Positions 1-20,231 of a stretch of 30,483 bases of DNA are shown in pieces. The notes under the pieces are model-generated. The model did not search any database. It had not been told where the DNA came from and saw nothing but the letters and a program-made list of their open reading frames with translations. Positions within the stretch are counted from its first letter, which is position 1. Each line of letters opens with the position of its first letter. The stretch comes from a virus: the IMG/VR virus record IMGVR_UViG_3300042311_000368, positions 1 through 30,483 of that record; one strand, given 5' to 3'. The translations under genes were made by a program, and so were the position numbers.

Positions 1-2117
1 CCTCCAGCATTTTGATTGTTTGCCGTGCCACCACTACCGTATAAATTAAACGATGGTGTTGCGCTAGGTTGTTGTGTTGAACTAGGAGCAGGAGGAGCAG
101 GAGTATTTCCACCGCCACCGCCACCACTACCAAATTGTGTACGTGAAATTTTCGCCACGTTTGCCAAACCGCCCGCCAATGCAATACCCGCTGATATTTG
201 TGCTTGTCCCGGAAACAAGTTGTTTGCCGGTGAAGCTAAAGCGGAGTTGACGGCTAAATAAGTTGATATTAACGCTTGACCAATTGAAGCGGTTTTATTT
301 ATTTGAAATGCTTTCTTTTGGCTCTTTTCGTCTTTACCAGCAGTTGCAGTAATTAAGTCAGCTAACGCCCCAAACGCATCACTTGCCATTTGTAGTTTAG
401 CGTTTTGAACTTCTTGTTCAGTTGCTATTTTCTTTGTTGCGCTTTCTTTGTCGATTGCGTTTAAATCAGCTTCTAATTTCTTTTTTAAAGCGATTTGTAA
501 TTCTGCATTTCCCTCTGCAGCTGTATATTCAGCATCGTATTTTTGTTGTAATACTAACTTTTCGTAATCTGCTTTTTCAAGCGTTAACTCTTGTAGTCTT
601 AAAAATTCAGAATCTTCTTTTGCTATTGCATCTGCAGTTGCTTTATCTTGAATTACTTTTAATTTTTCAAGTCTACTTTTTTCCGCATCAACATCTACTT
701 GAGTTAAATCACTTTGAAGTTTTTTAGTTGCTAATTTAATAAGTCCCTCATCGTCTCCAGCGATTGCAATTTGTTTATCGTAAGCTTCTTGTAATGCTAC
801 TTTTTTCTTTTCAGTTTCTGAAAGTGTTAATTCATTTTCAAGCGCAAATTTTGCGTCTTCAGTTTCAATGTATTTTGCGTTGGCTTGTTCTTGAATTTTT
901 TTAAGTTCTTCAGCGGTCTTTTTTGTCGAAGTTACTTTCTTTTTATCACCCTCTTCTTTAATCGTTACAAGTGTACCCTCTAATTGAGTCGCTTGGGTTG
1001 CAAATTTATTTGCTTCGGCATCTAAGGCTTTGATTCTTTTATCGGCTTCGGCTTGCGCTTCCTTACGATTCATTATCATTTGCGCACGTAATTCTGCAAC
1101 GGCTGTTTTTTCGCCTTTTAAAATTGCTGTTTTAGCATATTCTGCATATTGCAAAGCATCAAGTTCTACCTCCTGACTTGCTACAAAAGCATCTGCACTG
1201 GCTTTCGCTGACAACGCTCTAAACGCATCTGCTTTCGCTCTTAATGCTGAAACCTTAATATAAGTGTCTGCGTTCTTTGTGAATATTGCCTCCGCTTGAT
1301 TATAGTCTTTTGCTATTCCTAATGTGTCCCCAAATTTTTCGTTGTATAATTCAAGTGCTTTCTTTTTACTACCTACTCCTTTGCTTGCGTTTTCAAATGC
1401 TAATCCTACCTCGTCAACGTTTTGCTTTGCTTTGGAAAATGCATCTGCAGTTGCTTTGGTTGTTTCGTTTAAATCTTCTTGGGTGATTGTCGCTTCTTCT
1501 GTTTGGCTAGCAAAATAAGCAATAGCACCCACCACCGCAGTAAGCCCCGCAATAATAGCGATAATAGGCAAAGCGTTCATTGTCTTACCTAATACATTCG
1601 TCGCAACTGTTGCCCCCTCGGTAGCTACAATTTGCCCCTCTGTTACTACGATGTCAACTTCTTTTGCTGTGGTAAGTAATCCCAACTTTGAAGCGGCAGC
1701 AATAAACGAAGCTTTAATCTCTGTCATAGTATCACCTAAAGCACCCAATGAATTTAACGCATCACTAAGACCCGCAAGTGCTTGAAGTTTTACCAATGTT
1801 TCTGTAACCGCTTTTGATTCATCACCAAATAAAGCTTGCGCAGAAATCAAACCTTGAAAGCCCGCTATACCTACGCTTGTCGCTTTTCCTAAACCTTTGG
1901 CTAGATTCTCAGTTGCACTACCCGCAGTTGCTTCGATAGTTGCGTTAACGTCTTGCATTGTATCTTTTAATTCACCCGCTTTTTGTTGTAAGCGTTCAAT
2001 CAATGCTGGATCGGTTGCTTGTTGTAAAGCAATAGTTGTTTCACGTAATTCTTGACGAAGCGATTTTATCCCTGTGGTGTTTGTTCTTATTTCAACGTCT
2101 ATTACTTTGTCTGCCAT
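1..2117 (-). CDS. tail tape measure protein (C-terminus cut by window edge)
   Basis: Measures tail length during assembly and probably helps DNA pass into the host. About 705 residues can be read from the ATG at 2117 (protein begins MADKVIDVEIRT); the gene runs off the left edge without a stop. Visible layout: an N-terminal helical part, a hydrophobic stretch near residues 183-202 (PIIAIIAGLTAVVGAIAYF) of the kind tape measure proteins often carry, then a long Lys/Glu/Ala-rich heptad region from about 290 to 600 (coiled coil), then a Gly-rich segment (FGSGGGGGGN) and a Pro/Ser/Asn-rich tail. Repeated phrases such as 'LEKLKVIQDKA' and 'LEADLNAIDKE' suggest internal repeats in the coiled coil. 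It overlaps the upstream tail gene by 16 bases. The family call rests on composition, length and context, not on a catalytic motif. Confidence 0.85.
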   Translation of the reverse strand, partial: MADKVIDVEIRTNTTGIKSLRQELRETTIALQQATDPALIERLQQKAGELKDTMQDVNATIEATAGSATENLAKGLGKATSVGIAGFQGLISAQALFGDESKAVTETLVKLQALAGLSDALNSLGALGDTMTEIKASFIAAASKLGLLTTAKEVDIVVTEGQIVATEGATVATNVLGKTMNALPIIAIIAGLTAVVGAIAYFASQTEEATITQEDLNETTKATADAFSKAKQNVDEVGLAFENASKGVGSKKKALELYNEKFGDTLGIAKDYNQAEAIFTKNADTYIKVSALRAKADAFRALSAKASADAFVASQEVELDALQYAEYAKTAILKGEKTAVAELRAQMIMNRKEAQAEADKRIKALDAEANKFATQATQLEGTLVTIKEEGDKKKVTSTKKTAEELKKIQEQANAKYIETEDAKFALENELTLSETEKKKVALQEAYDKQIAIAGDDEGLIKLATKKLQSDLTQVDVDAEKSRLEKLKVIQDKATADAIAKEDSEFLRLQELTLEKADYEKLVLQQKYDAEYTAAEGNAELQIALKKKLEADLNAIDKESATKKIATEQEVQNAKLQMASDAFGALADLITATAGKDEKSQKKAFQINKTASIGQALISTYLAVNSALASPANNLFPGQAQISAGIALAGGLANVAKISRTQFGSGGGGGGNTPAPPAPSSTQQPSATPSFNLYGSGGTANNQNAG

Positions 2118-4894
2118 GATTCTATTATTATTGTGGTGTTCATTAGTAGCCCATCTGTTAAAGTTCCTGAAGAGTCTATTGTTCTTATCTCAACTGTAAA
2201 ATTGTTTATTCTACCTATTGAAATGAACCCTACAGTTGACTTTGCAAATTGAGCAACGCAAAGGACTTGACCTAAAAATACACCGTTTGGCGATGTTAAT
2301 TGATAGTGTCCTATATTGATTCTTGTAATCGTTAATCCGAATTGGTCAACTGCAATATCCATTGTAGGATTTGCAGTACCTACCTGAGTAACCAACGCCT
2401 TAAATAGAAATTTAGGCGAAAGTATTTCTTTGTTTCCTACAAAAAGATTATCGGTATAAAGACCGTCTTTTTGAACTACCTTATTATCTCCGATTATAAT
2501 TGCATTTTTAACCGTTCCTAATATTTGGTTTCCTTTTCCTAATACAATAACGTCACCGCTTGAACTATCGCTAGTCAAAGAATCGTAACGTTTTTTAATA
2601 ATGTCCTTTATTGGAACTTTTATGCCAGCATCGTTTTTGCTAGGTTTAGTTGGTTTAGGTATTCTAAACTTTGGTAGTGTTACTTCCTGGTCCACACTTA
2701 ACAACTCAAACTTTGTCGGTGCGTTACTGTTTGCATCGTAGTCAATAACTTTGTTTATTACCCAATAGGAACGGTCTAAATAGATTTTATCGTTTAATCT
2801 AAGGTTTGCTATGTCGAATGAATTAACGTTTAACATAACAGTGTACAGTTTACCGCTATTGATTTGGGCAACAGTTCGCCTCCAATAGGTATTCCCTAAA
2901 TTATTGTACGGAATAGTACCGTAGTTGTTATCAAAGTAGTAATCACACGCCCCAAAGTTCAAATCTTTGTTTGCGTTTACAGGCGCGTCAAAGTGTCCGA
3001 CGTATGGATATTCATTTACGCTTAAAAACTGCGTTGGTGTATCGTTAATTTGATAGTAACCGCATGGTAATTTTCCACCGTCAAAAACTATTCGTGGCAA
3101 TGTTTTAGGTTCGCTACCATTCACTCCAAACACAGTTGCACCAAATGGAGTTGAAAGGAAAGGAGACGCCCCAAAAATAACGTCTTTCTTAACTTCGTTT
3201 TTGATATACTCGTTGTCAAAAGTATATTGAACTTGACCATAAACCTCGTTCACGTTTTTAAGATAACCAACGTTTAACGCATCGGTGTCGCTTGCATAGG
3301 TTAATGTCAATTTCTTTGCCGTCAACTCAGGTAGGAATGTCAAAGTATGTGGTAACTCTTTACAAAGTTTGTTTGTGAAATCCTTTACGTTTCCGCTATC
3401 GTAGTATTTATCCCTAGTCATTAAGATAATGTCTTTTGGGTTGTCGATATTAGGAATGACAAACAGATTGAACAACGTGAAAATAGATTTTAGAAAGTCG
3501 CTTTGTTTAATGTTGGCGGGTATAAAATCATTCATCACAACAGGGAAACCAAACGCTAAACTTTCACCGCTAGGAATAACACGAATTTTAATTGAGTTTA
3601 CATTTACAATAAATTCAACGTTGGCGGGTGCATTATCGCTTACTCTAAAAAAAGACGGTACACTACTTAATTGAGTGAACATTTGTAACTCCAATACATC
3701 AGTAAAGGCTATGTCAGTCGCTGTTAAATTTAGGCTATTAATCCCACTTGAAATAATTGTGTCACCACTTGGTAAGTTTGCATAACCCGAAAAAGCAGAA
3801 TCTATAACAGTGTAACCACTTGGTGAAATGTAGCAAATAGGATTAACACTTTCTGCAAAAACCGCCACGTTACCCAAAGGAAATACGCCCCCGTTTGTAC
3901 ATTCAATTATAGGATTACTAGATATTTGACCGTTTAAATAAACAGATGAAGAACCCTCATTATTTCTAAATATCAATTCATAGTCAATCTCAATTTGATA
4001 TTCTAATTGATTAGGTACGTATAAATTAAATGGACTTGTGTACTGGCTTAAAGTTGGATTATAAATATTTTGGTCGTCCTTTATTTCGGTGTTAATATTT
4101 AGCTTTGTGTAAGTCGCAAAACCGCCAACTGAAAAACCGTCAATCTCTTGTGATGTTGTTTCCTCTGCAATAACTTCCGCTTCGACTTGCACCGCTTCGC
4201 TTATCTTTGACTTACCACCGTTGTAAGGAATAAGCATTTTATCAATACCGATTGATTGCATTTCGTCTAACTGATACGAATAACCAGCATTCGAGAAAAT
4301 ACGGTTAAGATACTGCCAAACATAAACGGCGGGTTTCATTTCCGTAAGGTTGTACTGCGCATCGTCTGTGATTGGTAACACATATTTATAACCGTCTTCT
4401 TTAACATGGTCGTAACTTGCAATAACATCACTCGCTTGATATGTGTGGTTTAAGTCGCTAAAATCTAAGTCAGTCAACAACTTACTACCTATGTCGGTAA
4501 ACAATTCTGAAACGGTATCTTTCACGGTAACAGTGTACATGATTTGCTCATCGTTACCTATGCCAGTCGAAATCTTTTCTACATCGATTAACTGAATGAT
4601 TGCATTGTCCAATACTATCTCACCGTCTTGCTCAATTAAACACGCTTGTTTAGTGTTGATATTAAATTCAAGTGTTACAGCGTTAACATCAAAGATATTA
4701 TCAAAGACTAGGTTATTGTGTTTCGTTCCTACAATTTTAATCGACTTACTGAAAGAACCCGTTTTGCTCGTTAAGTCCCTAACATCTGACACGCCAAAAT
4801 TCAAAGGCACTACAACATTTTCGGCAACCTCTAAATAATCGTTTATACCTACATTGAAGAAATCCCCTATTAATCTAATTCTAGTTACCGTCAT
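2102..4894 (-). CDS. large tail/baseplate-like structural protein, 930 aa
   Basis: No enzyme motif is visible. The protein is rich in beta-forming residues throughout, with a short helical stretch near residues 200-220 (PAVYVWQYLNRIFSNAGY). A Pro/Lys linker (PKFRIPKPTKPSKNDAG, about residue 740-757) separates a C-terminal beta-rich domain of about 170 residues containing a 'NAIIIGDNKVV' segment, reminiscent of repeats in phage appendage proteins. Large proteins of this kind lie beside the tape measure gene in Bacteroidetes siphoviruses and are probably baseplate or tail-tip components; that role is inferred. The start ATG overlaps the stop of the previous gene (ATGA), and the stop lies inside the tape measure start region, so the three tail genes look translationally coupled. 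Confidence 0.7.
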   Translation of the reverse strand: MTVTRIRLIGDFFNVGINDYLEVAENVVVPLNFGVSDVRDLTSKTGSFSKSIKIVGTKHNNLVFDNIFDVNAVTLEFNINTKQACLIEQDGEIVLDNAIIQLIDVEKISTGIGNDEQIMYTVTVKDTVSELFTDIGSKLLTDLDFSDLNHTYQASDVIASYDHVKEDGYKYVLPITDDAQYNLTEMKPAVYVWQYLNRIFSNAGYSYQLDEMQSIGIDKMLIPYNGGKSKISEAVQVEAEVIAEETTSQEIDGFSVGGFATYTKLNINTEIKDDQNIYNPTLSQYTSPFNLYVPNQLEYQIEIDYELIFRNNEGSSSVYLNGQISSNPIIECTNGGVFPLGNVAVFAESVNPICYISPSGYTVIDSAFSGYANLPSGDTIISSGINSLNLTATDIAFTDVLELQMFTQLSSVPSFFRVSDNAPANVEFIVNVNSIKIRVIPSGESLAFGFPVVMNDFIPANIKQSDFLKSIFTLFNLFVIPNIDNPKDIILMTRDKYYDSGNVKDFTNKLCKELPHTLTFLPELTAKKLTLTYASDTDALNVGYLKNVNEVYGQVQYTFDNEYIKNEVKKDVIFGASPFLSTPFGATVFGVNGSEPKTLPRIVFDGGKLPCGYYQINDTPTQFLSVNEYPYVGHFDAPVNANKDLNFGACDYYFDNNYGTIPYNNLGNTYWRRTVAQINSGKLYTVMLNVNSFDIANLRLNDKIYLDRSYWVINKVIDYDANSNAPTKFELLSVDQEVTLPKFRIPKPTKPSKNDAGIKVPIKDIIKKRYDSLTSDSSSGDVIVLGKGNQILGTVKNAIIIGDNKVVQKDGLYTDNLFVGNKEILSPKFLFKALVTQVGTANPTMDIAVDQFGLTITRINIGHYQLTSPNGVFLGQVLCVAQFAKSTVGFISIGRINNFTVEIRTIDSSGTLTDGLLMNTTIIIESWQTK

Positions 4895-8099: not shown

Positions 8100-8380
8100 T
8101 ACTCCTCAATTTGTTCGATAAACGCTTTCTTACTTGTCGCTTTGATGTTTGGGAAACGCTCACGTAATTCGTTCAATGTGAAATCTGCGTAACTATCAGC
8201 TACTAATCCGTTGTTTTCTTCTTTCGGTGTTTCTGTTTCCTCCTCAAACATAAATGCAAACTCTTTGATGTTTACCCAATGATTAGGATTAACTTCTGCG
8301 GTGTTAATTTGGATTTTTCCGATTGCTCTTGAATTTACTGTTACGATACAGTTTTCAAATTCTTCTTTAAATTTTGCCAT
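8099..8380 (-). CDS. hypothetical protein with possible HeH/LEM-like C-terminus, 93 aa
   Basis: Function unknown. The N-terminal part (FENCIVTVNSRAIGKIQINT) looks like a small beta domain found as a small unnamed protein in other Bacteroidetes phages. The acidic middle (EEETETPKEENN) looks like a linker. The end (LNELRERFPNIKATSKKAFI) resembles the short two-helix HeH/LEM motif. It sits between the sigma-like gene and the terminase small subunit, overlapping both (14 bases and TAATG). A DNA-binding or capsid-accessory role is possible but not shown. Confidence 0.6.
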   Translation of the reverse strand: MAKFKEEFENCIVTVNSRAIGKIQINTAEVNPNHWVNIKEFAFMFEEETETPKEENNGLVADSYADFTLNELRERFPNIKATSKKAFIEQIEE

Positions 8381-8900
8381 GGTTTCTTATTTCTTGTTTC
8401 ATTTCATTTATTAAATCATTCGCTGTTTGCTTGCTTAGATTGAAGTATTTAGCGAAATCCCTTACTGTCCTGTATCTCTTTATGAAATACGCTTCAAAGA
8501 TAATCTTTTTTATGCTACATTTCAAATTTAGCCTATACGCTTCGATTTGTGCTTTTTGGCTGTTACGCTTAATGTCGTGTTCTATCTCTAATAGGATATT
8601 ATTTTCTTCTTGTCTTTCGATACCTATCAACTCCGAATGCCTTTCTTTGAACTGGTAATTCGTTACGCTGTTTTGTTTGCAAATTTCTAGGTTTATCTTA
8701 CTAAAAAAATAAGATTGCAGTTGTCCGACTGTTTCGATTTTATCCTTACATTTTAGCACGTGAATATACGCTTCACTAATTACAATCTCAGGATCAAAAT
8801 TTCTTTTTTTTCGTCGCACAAAGTCGCTAGCAACTTTTAAAAGTAACTGATAATTTTCATTTACGTAGTTATCAATTTGTGACTTTTGCATACCATTCAT
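8367..8900 (-). CDS. sigma-70-like RNA polymerase factor, probable late regulator
   Basis: Read from ATG 8900 (MNGMQKSQIDNYVNENYQLL), 177 residues. The N-terminal half (YQLLLKVASDFVRRKK, then DPEIVISEAYIHVLKCKDKI) follows the region 2 pattern of sigma-70 factors, where a helix pair binds the polymerase clamp. The C-terminal part (VRDFAKYFNLSKQTANDLIN) is a clear helix-turn-helix like region 4. The frame is open upstream to another ATG at 8960, but that start would overlap the preceding gene by 89 bases and adds a non-homologous-looking Cys/Val stretch, so 8900 (or 8891) is preferred. Its place directly ahead of the terminase and tail genes suggests late-gene activation; this is inference. Confidence 0.65.
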   Translation of the reverse strand: MNGMQKSQIDNYVNENYQLLLKVASDFVRRKKRNFDPEIVISEAYIHVLKCKDKIETVGQLQSYFFSKINLEICKQNSVTNYQFKERHSELIGIERQEENNILLEIEHDIKRNSQKAQIEAYRLNLKCSIKKIIFEAYFIKRYRTVRDFAKYFNLSKQTANDLINEMKQEIRNHGKI

Positions 8901-9063
8901 TAAACTGTACACGCTTAATTTTTCGCTTTGTCTTACTACACATACAGTAATATTCAGCATCGCTATTATACGCCAAAAAGATACGCTGACAAGTCAACAT
9001 ATCCTTTTTACTGTCACTTGGGTGCGTAGTCCAAGTATCAATCTCGCTCTGCAATAGAATCAT
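8872..9063 (-). CDS. small Cys-containing protein, 63 aa
   Basis: Unrecognised. Three cysteines (TCQ, then YYCMC) and a basic stretch (SKTKRKIKRVQFNEWY) could form a small metal-binding or nucleic-acid-binding fold. It overlaps the upstream membrane protein gene by 26 bases and the sigma-like gene by 29 bases, which supports translational coupling in one message. The C-x-x-I-F-xx-Y pattern near residue 25-30 recurs in small unnamed Bacteroidetes phage proteins, as far as I can recall; low certainty on any role. Confidence 0.6.
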   Translation of the reverse strand: MILLQSEIDTWTTHPSDSKKDMLTCQRIFLAYNSDAEYYCMCSKTKRKIKRVQFNEWYAKVTN

Positions 9064-13109: not shown

Positions 13110-15191
13110 TTATAAATCGATTTGTAAACGGTAAACTCTCATTAACTTTCCGTTTATTTTTTTCATTTCTTGTTCTATTCCAACTTTTTTTAATGCTTGA
13201 CCTATTCTTTTTGTGTTTGTACGAAGTGATGGAAAATGTTTTTCAAGTCCTAGTTTTACATCTGTTGAAGTCATGTAATTATATTGGTCAAATTTGCAAT
13301 ACCTGGTAATCAAATCTTCTTCTTGCCAAACTTCTGTATTTTTCAAAGTTGATTGATTAAGAAAGTCTATTTCTCCTTTTTCTAAAAACCAACCTTGAGG
13401 ATCATTTTTCCATTCATTGTACAGCTCAATAAATAATTTTGTCTTATCAATTGATTTAAATTTTTCAATGTTAAATGCAATTAGATTAATCGGAATTATA
13501 CGTCTGTTTCCGGTTGGATCGTTTATTACTTCGCTATCATTTGAAGTACCCCCAAGCACTGCCAAACGGTTTAAATCTTCCGTTATTCGGCCATAAGGCG
13601 CACGAATTGAAAATGTTTGTTGTGAAGATAAACGCTTTAATTTTGTAGCATCTTTTTTTGATTTACCTCCAAATTCGTCATCGACAATTAGTAATTTTTT
13701 ACACATTAAAATTTCAGAATCTTTGCCCTCATCTAAATTTGATTCTGCATAATATTTTCTAAGTTCTTTTGGTAATAAATTTCTAAAAAATTCCGTTTTT
13801 CTTACTCCTTGTTCTCCTACCAATACCAAAATCATAAGCGAATAAGTCCCAAAACTAGAACCGATAATACCAAGCAACCATTTTTTAAGGTAAACATCCA
13901 GGTAGTCTTCAATATTCCAAAACTCCTCATCTTTAAAAATCTGTGCATCTATTGTAAAACATGATTTTAATTTTTCAAATTCATTATCCGGAATGATATT
14001 TTGATTATTTAGAAAGAAGTCATGTATAGGATTAAAACTTGGCGTATTTTCTTTTGATTGTATTAAGGTCCAAACTTTATCTTTCGAAACTTTCTCATCT
14101 ATTTTATGCCAAACTAAAGAATAGAATTGAGCCATTTCTCTATCTGTCATTTCAGTTCCTTTCATTTCAAAATTTCGTGTAATTTCATTGAACTTAATTT
14201 TTTGTAATCTTATCAAATCAATTATTTCATCTAGTTCCGTTTTTTCTTTAGTACCAGGTTTTAAATTCTCAATAATATTATCATTGTCTTCAATGCCTAA
14301 TTCTTTTAAAGTTTCTTTTGGATTTTCTGAAAGTTTAATTACTGATTTAATTGTTTCAGTTTTTTCAGAAGTCAAAGAAATTCCTGCATCTTTAAACTTC
14401 CAATAAATTGTAGCAATAGAAATTCCGGTTTCTTTTCTAGTACATGCTTTTTGATAATGTTTTGACGCTTTTACTTCATCGTATTTTGACGAAGCTCTAC
14501 TAAGTGAATGAAAATAACTTTCTCCATTTGGTCCAAACTCCGAAGCTAAAGCAAAGGCCAATTTAATGTAATCTGAATATTCATCAAATAAATTCATCCC
14601 GCTTGCCTGGTTAACCATGTCGTCAAAATCTGACTTAACTACAAACGGTTTATAATTTTTGCGTTCAACTTCTTTTTTCTTTAGGTATTTTTTAAAGACC
14701 TTTGATTTTTCATTTATTATTAATTCAGGATCATAAGAAATAAATCTTAACCTGGAAACATCTTTACATGATTTATCTACAACAATGGAATAATTTATAA
14801 AAAAATATTCTTCAAGTCCTAAAAAAGCATCTAAATGTCTTTCACTATCAATTTTTACATAAACTGCAAAACCAAATCCACCAGCGGACCTATGTATACA
14901 ATGTACATATTGGTCGGCTTTTAATGCTTCAATGTCAATTTCACAAATTTGGTCCTTTGCATCTACATCAATACAAATTAATCCGGAATGCTTGAGCAAA
15001 TTATTTGCCTTTCTTTCCTTAAAAACTCCGCTTGCAGTAACAGCATGTAAAGTTTCTTTCTTTCTTTTTCCGGTTCTAAAATCTAAAATTTCGTCTTGCC
15101 ACTGACCGTTTTTGATACCGTCAAAAAATGCTTCAATCGATAGATTTCTTTCACTGTTTGGCTCTTTTGCATGTTTAAAAATACTTACCAT
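13110..15191 (-). CDS. primase-helicase-like protein: BT4734-type N-terminus with VirE P-loop ATPase
   Basis: Replication protein of 693 residues. The N-terminal third resembles the BT4734-like/VirE_N domain: LICIDVD with the acid pair Asp75/Asp77, HRSAGGFGFAVYV (100-112) and SRLRF (146-150), the layout of archaeo-eukaryotic-type primases. A helical PriCT-like segment follows (residues 200-270). The C-terminal part is a VirE-type ATPase: Walker A GEQGVRKT (459-466), Walker B LLIVDDE (500-506), GTSND (548-552) and GNRR (561-564). This makes it a likely primase with a helicase-like motor. Preceded by a structured 100-base leader and a TATATTTG promoter; followed by the iteron-like region. Confidence 0.85.
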   Translation of the reverse strand: MVSIFKHAKEPNSERNLSIEAFFDGIKNGQWQDEILDFRTGKRKKETLHAVTASGVFKERKANNLLKHSGLICIDVDAKDQICEIDIEALKADQYVHCIHRSAGGFGFAVYVKIDSERHLDAFLGLEEYFFINYSIVVDKSCKDVSRLRFISYDPELIINEKSKVFKKYLKKKEVERKNYKPFVVKSDFDDMVNQASGMNLFDEYSDYIKLAFALASEFGPNGESYFHSLSRASSKYDEVKASKHYQKACTRKETGISIATIYWKFKDAGISLTSEKTETIKSVIKLSENPKETLKELGIEDNDNIIENLKPGTKEKTELDEIIDLIRLQKIKFNEITRNFEMKGTEMTDREMAQFYSLVWHKIDEKVSKDKVWTLIQSKENTPSFNPIHDFFLNNQNIIPDNEFEKLKSCFTIDAQIFKDEEFWNIEDYLDVYLKKWLLGIIGSSFGTYSLMILVLVGEQGVRKTEFFRNLLPKELRKYYAESNLDEGKDSEILMCKKLLIVDDEFGGKSKKDATKLKRLSSQQTFSIRAPYGRITEDLNRLAVLGGTSNDSEVINDPTGNRRIIPINLIAFNIEKFKSIDKTKLFIELYNEWKNDPQGWFLEKGEIDFLNQSTLKNTEVWQEEDLITRYCKFDQYNYMTSTDVKLGLEKHFPSLRTNTKRIGQALKKVGIEQEMKKINGKLMRVYRLQIDL

Positions 15192-15200
15192 AAAAAAATA

Positions 15201-15251
15201 TTATAAATGCGAAAAGCCAGCAATCAAAGGCGGGTGAGAATACCCTTTCAT
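15201..15251 (-). CDS. possible leader peptide (16 codons) upstream of primase
   Basis: ATG 15251 opens MKGYSHPPLIAGFSHL and stops nine bases before the primase start. It runs through the 3' half of the leader hairpin, so ribosomes reading it would melt the stem. No homology is known; it may be chance. Confidence 0.25.
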   Translation of the reverse strand: MKGYSHPPLIAGFSHL

Positions 15252-15288
15252 GCTAGCTTTTCAATTAAATTTCCTGAAGTTCTCACCC
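15211..15288 (-). ncRNA. structured leader RNA with interlocking stems (possible pseudoknot)
   Basis: Read on the minus strand, GGGTGAGAA (15280-15288 side) pairs perfectly with TTCTCACCC (15232-15240 side), and GAAAAGCTAGCA (15251-15262) pairs over 12 positions, one of them U-G, with TGCTGGCTTTTC (15211-15222). The order is A-B-A'-B', so the stems interlock: either a pseudoknot or two exclusive folds. The UUCUC that the first strand would pair with sits in the loop of an inner hairpin. The structure starts about five bases after the expected transcription start and ends 19 bases before the primase ATG. Confidence 0.6.
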
Positions 15289-15299
15289 TTCTTGAATTA

Positions 15300-15307
15300 C
15301 AAATATA
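15300..15307 (-). promoter_or_regulatory. -7 element TATATTTG of the primase promoter
   Basis: Perfect match to TAnnTTTG. The expected start point is about 15293, so the transcript begins directly with the structured leader. The -33 element is not clear at the usual spacing. Confidence 0.5.
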
Positions 15308-15338
15308 CAAATAATCTCAATTCAACCTACAATTTCGA

Positions 15339-15537: not shown

Positions 15538-15747
15538 TTAGTTGATTCTCAATTCTTCGCCGGTCAATGCAAAGTAAATATTTTGCAATTCCTGAATGTA
15601 TAAAGTAACTTGGGGATAATTTCTCCTTTTAACCCCACTCATGTGTGGTTTAATAAAGTTATTTTTTTCAATGTCATGCACCTCTCCATAAATTGATATT
15701 GCATACCTTCCATTTGTTTCTGGTATTTCTTTCCAAACGTAATCCAT
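15538..15747 (-). CDS. stand-alone NUMOD4-like protein, 69 aa
   Basis: WKEIPETNGRYAISIYGEVH (residues 5-24) is the NUMOD4 signature (W-K-x-I-P-x-x-x-x-x-Y-x-[VI]-S-x-x-G-x-V), normally an N-terminal DNA-binding module of HNH homing endonucleases. Here the frame stops after 69 residues and no HNH domain follows in any neighbouring minus frame that I can see, so it is either a free DNA-binding module or the remnant of a homing endonuclease. Start ATG 15747 is preceded by an AT-rich gap with 10-base tandem repeats. Confidence 0.7.
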   Translation of the reverse strand: MDYVWKEIPETNGRYAISIYGEVHDIEKNNFIKPHMSGVKRRNYPQVTLYIQELQNIYFALTGEELRIN

Positions 15748-20217: not shown

Positions 20218-20231
20218 TTTGTGCAAATATA
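20218..20231 (-). promoter_or_regulatory. -7 element TATATTTG upstream of the annealing protein
   Basis: TATATTTG at 20224-20231 followed by CACAAA in the 52-base gap before the recombination block. Fits TAnnTTTG; -33 element unclear. Confidence 0.5.

Follow-up and report, generated by a model that had tools for sequence, protein, structure and literature searches.

A kissing-hairpin leader upstream of primase, homing endonuclease and other phage genes: a candidate transcription attenuator

Described leader RNAs and the primase leader of the window

Transcription attenuation and kissing loops control the replication of the plasmids pT181, ColE1 and those of the IncFII type. Conserved nucleotides form the polymerase contacts of put-type RNAs, and the loops of the guanidine-II riboswitch are short and conserved because they bind guanidinium. 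The replication operon of phage P4 encodes the alpha primase. In the leader of this operon, RNA pairing causes premature transcription termination (PMC4825925). Hairpins upstream of the T4-type homing endonuclease genes I-TevI, segB, mobE and seg43(25) limit their expression (PMC2988022), and the guanidine-II gene leader carries two short hairpins, P1 and P2, for which a loop interaction has been proposed (PMC7544219). A structure of Bacteroidetes phages, HMP_4078, is found near D5_N and is described as having no terminator (PMC8040213).

The window analysed is a stretch of viral DNA of 30,483 nucleotides (IMG/VR record IMGVR_UViG_3300042311_000368). It contains a VapE/BT4734-type primase-helicase gene (13110-15191, minus strand; Pfam PF05272, PF08800 and PF08707), the proposed target of a structured leader encoded on the same strand. 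Two interleaved stems of nine and twelve pairs, in the order A-B-A'-B', had been predicted in this leader from the letters alone, and both are present. The leader begins with a Bacteroidota-type -7 promoter element (TATATTTG, 15300-15307), followed by hairpin P1 (15276-15291; stem GAAG 15291-15288 with CUUC 15279-15276, loop GGUGAGAA 15287-15280), an A/U-rich linker (15263-15275; mostly 9 to 20 nt in relatives) and hairpin P2 (15211-15262; fold z -4.84). P2 has an outer stem (15262-15251 with 15222-15211), an internal loop and an inner stem (15248-15244 with 15230-15226). The outer stem is stem B, in which GAAAAGCTAGCA pairs with TGCTGGCTTTTC through 12 pairs including one G-U. A U-rich tail 3' of P2 (15192-15215; UUUU at 15215-15212 and UUUUUUU at 15198-15192; terminator tail score -4.26), which is interrupted in the window (UUUUCGCAUUUAUAA), leads to the primase ATG at 15191. 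The positions given originally for the promoter and for the 19-nt gap between stem B and the ATG were borne out.

Strand A, GGGTGAGAA (GGGUGAGAA; 15280-15288), is a 9-bp perfect complement of A', TTCTCACCC (UUCUCACCC; 15232-15240), which is recognized both by this complementarity and by covariation of the kiss in relatives. In the minimum-energy fold, A lies inside the loop of its own hairpin, P1, and A' is the apical loop of P2. The A/A' pairing is a loop-loop kiss between the two hairpins. Of the two arrangements originally envisaged, a pseudoknot or mutually exclusive stems, the first is compatible with the pairings, more exactly as a kiss. The P1-P2 region folds better than its dinucleotide shuffles (z -3.0, with 0 of 200 shuffles as good), as does P2 alone (z -4.8, again 0 of 200). 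Promoter, P1, A/U-rich linker, terminator-like P2 and start codon together make the leader a self-contained cis-regulatory module of about 90 to 105 nt.

For the proposed attenuation in such a leader, phage P4 provides the closest functional precedent. The P4 CI RNA resembles the present case in that complementary segments lie in the leader of a phage replication operon, and there the pairing is tied to premature termination. In P4, however, a processed antisense RNA acts on seqA and seqC, whereas the partners here are adjacent hairpin loops of a single RNA, the second of these hairpins being terminator-like. The features predicted in the leader include complementary loops and the terminator-like P2; a trans-acting RNA complementary to separate leader sites, as in P4-type immunity, was not found in the window. 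The plasmid systems share with the element fully complementary loops of 7 to 8 nt, rapid loop diversification and control of a replication gene, but in plasmids the partner is a separate antisense RNA, not the 5' hairpin of the same RNA. To our knowledge, a loop-loop kiss within one RNA that is wired to a terminator has not been described in phages (open-licence literature).

Conservation of pairing among related phages

Nearly all relatives of the primase found in viral contigs have a leader of different sequence and the same plan, located between a Bacteroidota promoter and the primase start. Where primase identity is below about 52%, the gene is internal to an operon or preceded by another gene, and the leader is mostly absent directly upstream. 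In the relatives the P1 stem is changed on both sides (GUAG/CUAC, GUGG/CCAC, AGUAA/UUACU, AGGUA/UACCU, UCGG/CCGA and others), and P2 is kept as a hairpin despite unrelated sequence. In 24 primase leaders whose selection had not depended on complementarity, P2 was predicted with the 5' end disregarded; its loop has a perfect complement of at least 6 nt within the first 50 nt in 23 of them and of at least 7 nt in 21, compared with 6.7% and 1.8%, respectively, for shuffled 5' regions. When P1 and P2 were predicted independently, a loop-loop match of at least 6 nt was present in 33 of 42 elements and in 0 of 1568 swapped pairs of unrelated loops. As this larger set was gathered partly with a complementarity filter, the 24 leaders, together with the free-loop, whole-contig model and covariation tests, provide the cleaner evidence.

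The free-loop test used a DNA pattern in which the letters of the P1 stem and P2 neck were fixed and both 8-nt loops were left free. Run on 2.9 million viral contigs, it returned 52 sites, of which 39 were distinct; the two loops match perfectly over 7 bp in all 39, which include 20 distinct P1 loops. Five leaders, four of endonucleases and one of a primase, were used to train a covariance model, which recovered further primase leaders (L031, E = 5e-7; L030, E = 9e-6) and also matched the leaders of Flavobacterium phage mumin and Polaribacter phage P12002L. The kiss was present in three new matches (L204, L218 and L176), though the model does not contain it. Model R2 gave 23 matches in 14 whole phage contigs, among them four copies in one contig, each with a different loop pair; a kiss of 7 to 9 bp was present in every one of the 22 matches that were readable.

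In a model alignment of 45 sequences, built without fitting to the kiss, pairing holds in 97.4% of kissing cells (71% when shuffled, 24 to 50% when slid), with a covariation of 0.713 (0.191 shuffled, ≤ 0.119 slid). The search for compensating changes in relatives was answered at all seven kissing pairs, each of which shows changes on both sides. P1 is paired in 100% of cells, with double-sided changes in three of its four pairs. Since the length of P2 varies, its columns are poorly registered (52% of cells paired), and the evidence for P2 therefore rests on per-sequence folding. Complementarity has been kept while sequence was exchanged, showing that selection acts on pairing and not on letters. 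The element has the A-B-A'-B' order of a pseudoknot or kissing complex, and both of its pairings are kept by compensating changes. It is clear that both stems are under strong selection in homologous phages, in agreement with the structured regulatory leader originally proposed, and with natural compensatory evidence of such strength the structure comprising P1, P2 and the kiss is close to certain. Because the P1 stem around A is conserved across families, the arrangement is a two-hairpin kiss; simple H-type pseudoknot and HDV-like ribozyme layouts were rejected on the same ground. Stems arising by chance, or inverted repeats that serve as an operator in double-stranded DNA, would account for the inverted repeats themselves and for nothing further. 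Neither would be expected to keep pairing through exchange of letters, to have a U-tract on one strand or to follow the orientation of the promoter; this explanation is refuted by the covariation and has a negligible probability.

No known class of RNA had been recognized in the leader, and a search of the whole window against Rfam 15 likewise gave no match at gathering thresholds; four loci, those in which the element is best conserved, gave none up to E = 1. BLAST searches of phage records with the leader returned nothing, or one 22-nt chance match, because the letters are not conserved. A fold without fixed sequence would explain why the element has escaped sequence-based RNA surveys. The guanidine-II riboswitch has conserved ligand loops, whereas the kiss of 7 to 9 bp described here has no fixed sequence; with 20 P1 loops in 39 elements and no Rfam match, the element lacks the conserved short ligand loop of that class. 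In about 690 cellular genomes of the host phylum, model R2 with strict filters gave a single match, which is weak evidence of absence; it came from a genome bin entry already known to carry a phage-type primase locus.

Two structural variants were observed. About 150 nt upstream of the primase, L068 (the same locus as L011) has an interleaved leader of different proportions that is unmatched by the descriptor, with a long A/U-rich stem plus AGCCCCTC/GAGGGGCT and then a U-run. It is possibly a divergent form of the same idea. In one large subfamily (L030, L031, L058, L219, L242 and others), an internal loop with AGUA opposite GAA is conserved in the apical part of P2. This loop resembles loop E/sarcin-ricin motifs and may be a site of protein or tertiary contact.

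Downstream genes and exchange of loops

The element is specific neither to the primase nor to the onset of replication; it is reused before unrelated genes. It lies directly before NUMOD4-HNH endonuclease genes (L027, L079, L201, L205, L216, L219, L225, L235 and L242), an AP2-type reading frame (L221), a Mom gene (L088) and small ORFs. In Polaribacter phage P12002L and in L176 it is followed by HTH_36 genes annotated as replication proteins, and it heads VapE and Toprim primase operons as well as endonuclease genes. Pfam analysis of 35 proteins encoded downstream of free-loop matches revealed NUMOD4 (13), HNH_3 (13), I-HmuI NUMOD-like (7), NUMOD3 (6), GIY-YIG (5) and NUMOD1 (4) domains. The element is consistently near a gene of the same orientation directly downstream. 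Some of the contigs with free-loop matches are large phages, one of which (168 kb) encodes a T4-type DNA polymerase. A separate observation concerns the T4-like contig L307, where a family B DNA polymerase gene (159-3089, minus strand) is split into two frames (576 and 332 aa) and adjoins a QueE-like radical SAM gene.

The original prediction linked the leader to the onset of replication, by a primase-specific sensor, by autoregulation or by refolding coupled to translation of a 16-codon frame. The position directly upstream of the primase agrees with this, and the frame does exist in the window, starting at 15251. However, it is not conserved in relatives (frames of at least 8 codons occur in only 14 of 42 leaders, all unrelated to each other), and refolding by translation of that frame is therefore rejected. 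As the same element precedes nuclease, Mom and small-ORF genes, it is unlikely to serve generally for autoregulation by the downstream product. The HTH_36 genes and the presence of the leader at the head of two different replication modules in Moomin phages also argue against specificity for the primase, which appears highly improbable.

For the endonuclease context, the T4 hairpins are the closest precedent; both are RNA hairpins situated just before a homing endonuclease gene. The T4 hairpins are single and sequester the Shine-Dalgarno sequence, whereas here two kissing hairpins and a terminator tail leave the start region outside. P2 contains no Shine-Dalgarno site and the start codon lies outside the hairpin, so the ribosome-binding site is not enclosed as in translational hairpins of the T4 type. 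Unlike these, the kissing element also precedes primases and replication genes. The covariance model had no match in T4 itself. An origin of replication was considered as a further candidate and rejected: there is no skew break, several elements occur per genome, and the nuclease and Mom contexts argue against it.

Leaders change faster than the genes they precede. Between L034 and L037 the primase DNA is 99.2% identical and the leaders 52%. In L025 and L027 (98.1% identical) the flanks are nearly identical on both sides, the leader has been exchanged and an HNH gene has been inserted in L027. This NUMOD4-HNH gene (336-967 of L027) lies exactly between leader and primase start, and the swapped leader with kept flanks resembles a recent homing event with co-conversion. 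In the window, a small ORF just upstream of the primase promoter (15538-15747, minus strand) has a NUMOD4 motif without an HNH domain and is possibly the remnant of a homing endonuclease once inserted there.

Closely related Flavobacterium phages isolated on strains LMO6 and LMO9 have three loop alleles in their replication-operon leaders (GTGGAACG/CGTTCCAC, GTGAGACG/CGTCTCAC and GTGAGAAG/CTTCTCAC), and within every allele the two loops match perfectly. Behind this leader, mumin has a helicase-VapE operon, and lillamy, tooticki and morran have a Toprim-primase operon. The two replication modules, one with a helicase and a VapE primase and the other with a Toprim primase, are unrelated and have been swapped behind the same leader in phages from the same host strains; the module-swap loci L345-L348 are Flavobacterium phages morran9-1, snusmum9-1, lillamy9-1 and tooticki6-1. 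Where one genome carries several copies, their loops differ on a shared P2 stem and none is repeated, in numbers too small for significance.

Such diversification would also suit an RNA that is itself the product, a small RNA of about 90 nt (P1-P2) acting in trans via its loops, for example controlling sibling genomes at the level of copy number or immunity, with little transcription reading through into the gene. The element is a complete promoter-to-terminator unit with hairpins at both ends, and an RNA that causes premature termination controls the P4 replication operon (PMC4825925). In the window, however, the only occurrences of GGGTGAGAA are A itself and the complement of A', one-mismatch sites are at chance level, and pairing in cis would compete with pairing in trans. 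A gene in the same orientation is always close downstream, and the few differences between copies in one genome add nothing significant. We consider a trans-acting product unlikely.

The terminator-like hairpin and possible attenuation

A Bacteroidota-type TAnnTTTG box lies 4 nt before P1 in eight of nine related elements, and in a group that includes large phage contigs a T4-late-like TATTTATA box lies exactly 3 nt before P1 in 21 of 21. This fixed distance places P1 at or very near the 5' end of the RNA. At the other end, the five positions that follow the final G-C pair of P2 have a T fraction of 0.85 to 0.95 (A, 2 to 12%), which falls to approximately 40% beyond them. Tail scores were ≤ -3.5 in 41 of 41 elements, compared with 27% of shuffled tails. 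P2 has the stem with G-C pairs and the directly following U-tract of an intrinsic terminator; it departs from the uninterrupted stem with a loop of 3 to 8 nt, some P2 loops being longer than 8 nt. A simple terminator scan of the window and of L225 did not call P2, because the stem is broken by an internal loop or bulge and the apical loop is long.

Two further explanations bear on these ends. The 5' kissing structure might act after transcription, shielding the mRNA from 5'-end-dependent decay and/or restricting ribosome access to the start codon. P1 at or near the predicted transcription start would fit, as would a P2 that in most elements ends only 10 to 27 nt before the start codon, and leader hairpins are known to hold back T4 homing endonucleases (PMC2988022). 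Neither role, however, needs the nearly universal U-tract directly after P2, and about 60 nt lie between P2 and the start codon in lillamy, tooticki and morran; a post-transcriptional role is rather improbable as well. Alternatively, two hairpins at the first bases of operon-head transcripts, before unrelated genes, recall a put-like cis antiterminator that modifies RNA polymerase. As the loops and most stem letters are free to change, in contrast to the conserved polymerase-contact nucleotides of put, and as P2 is itself terminator-like, this is very unlikely.

The range of about 10 to 60 nt between P2 and ATG, the general use of the element and the U-tract together favour attenuation over start-site masking or product-specific autoregulation. 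We suggest, with about an even chance of being right, that the element is a phage transcription attenuator that couples a terminator hairpin to a private kissing partner at the 5' end. Polymerase starting at the leader promoter would either stop at P2 or read into the gene, the choice being set by the kiss between the already folded P1 and the emerging P2 loop. P1 would fold first, and the A' strand would emerge ahead of the 3' arm of P2. If P1 captured A' before P2 closed, P2 would wind late with its loop already engaged and polymerase would escape; if P2 closed first, the kiss would lock the terminated form. As no anti-terminator pairing was found that overlaps an arm of P2, the switch would need a kinetic or topological basis. 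The balance might be tipped by a host factor, by the speed of the polymerase or by an RNA acting in trans. No antisense promoter was seen by eye inside the window leader. Each copy has its own private loops and would therefore answer to no partner but its own.

More broadly, and quite tentatively, the element may represent an undescribed class of phage RNA, a mobile, self-addressed attenuator cassette in which a private variable loop key is read by the transcript's own 5' hairpin. It would serve as an expression valve for homing endonucleases of unrelated folds and for replication operons, with keys diversifying to avoid cross-regulation between copies and between competing phages. The element bears on how selfish endonuclease genes stay lowly expressed and how replication genes are timed, two questions that have been difficult to address experimentally in Bacteroidota phages. 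It can be tested directly in cultured isolates with natural loop alleles (Flavobacterium phages mumin, tooticki, lillamy and morran, and Polaribacter phages P12002L/S).

The leaders that follow the remaining good promoters of the window are approximately 20 nt long and have neither structure nor kissing element; thus, the element is special to the primase promoter there. Minus-strand promoters at 20231, 18715 and 11031 (TATATTTGC/TACATTTGC) are followed by a short, A-rich, apparently unstructured leader and then ATG, which is likely to be the default leader of this phage. Near the terminase genes, 8367-8960 (minus strand) shows a weak match to the phage RNA polymerase sigma factor family phrog_1740, and this candidate sigma factor could drive late transcription.
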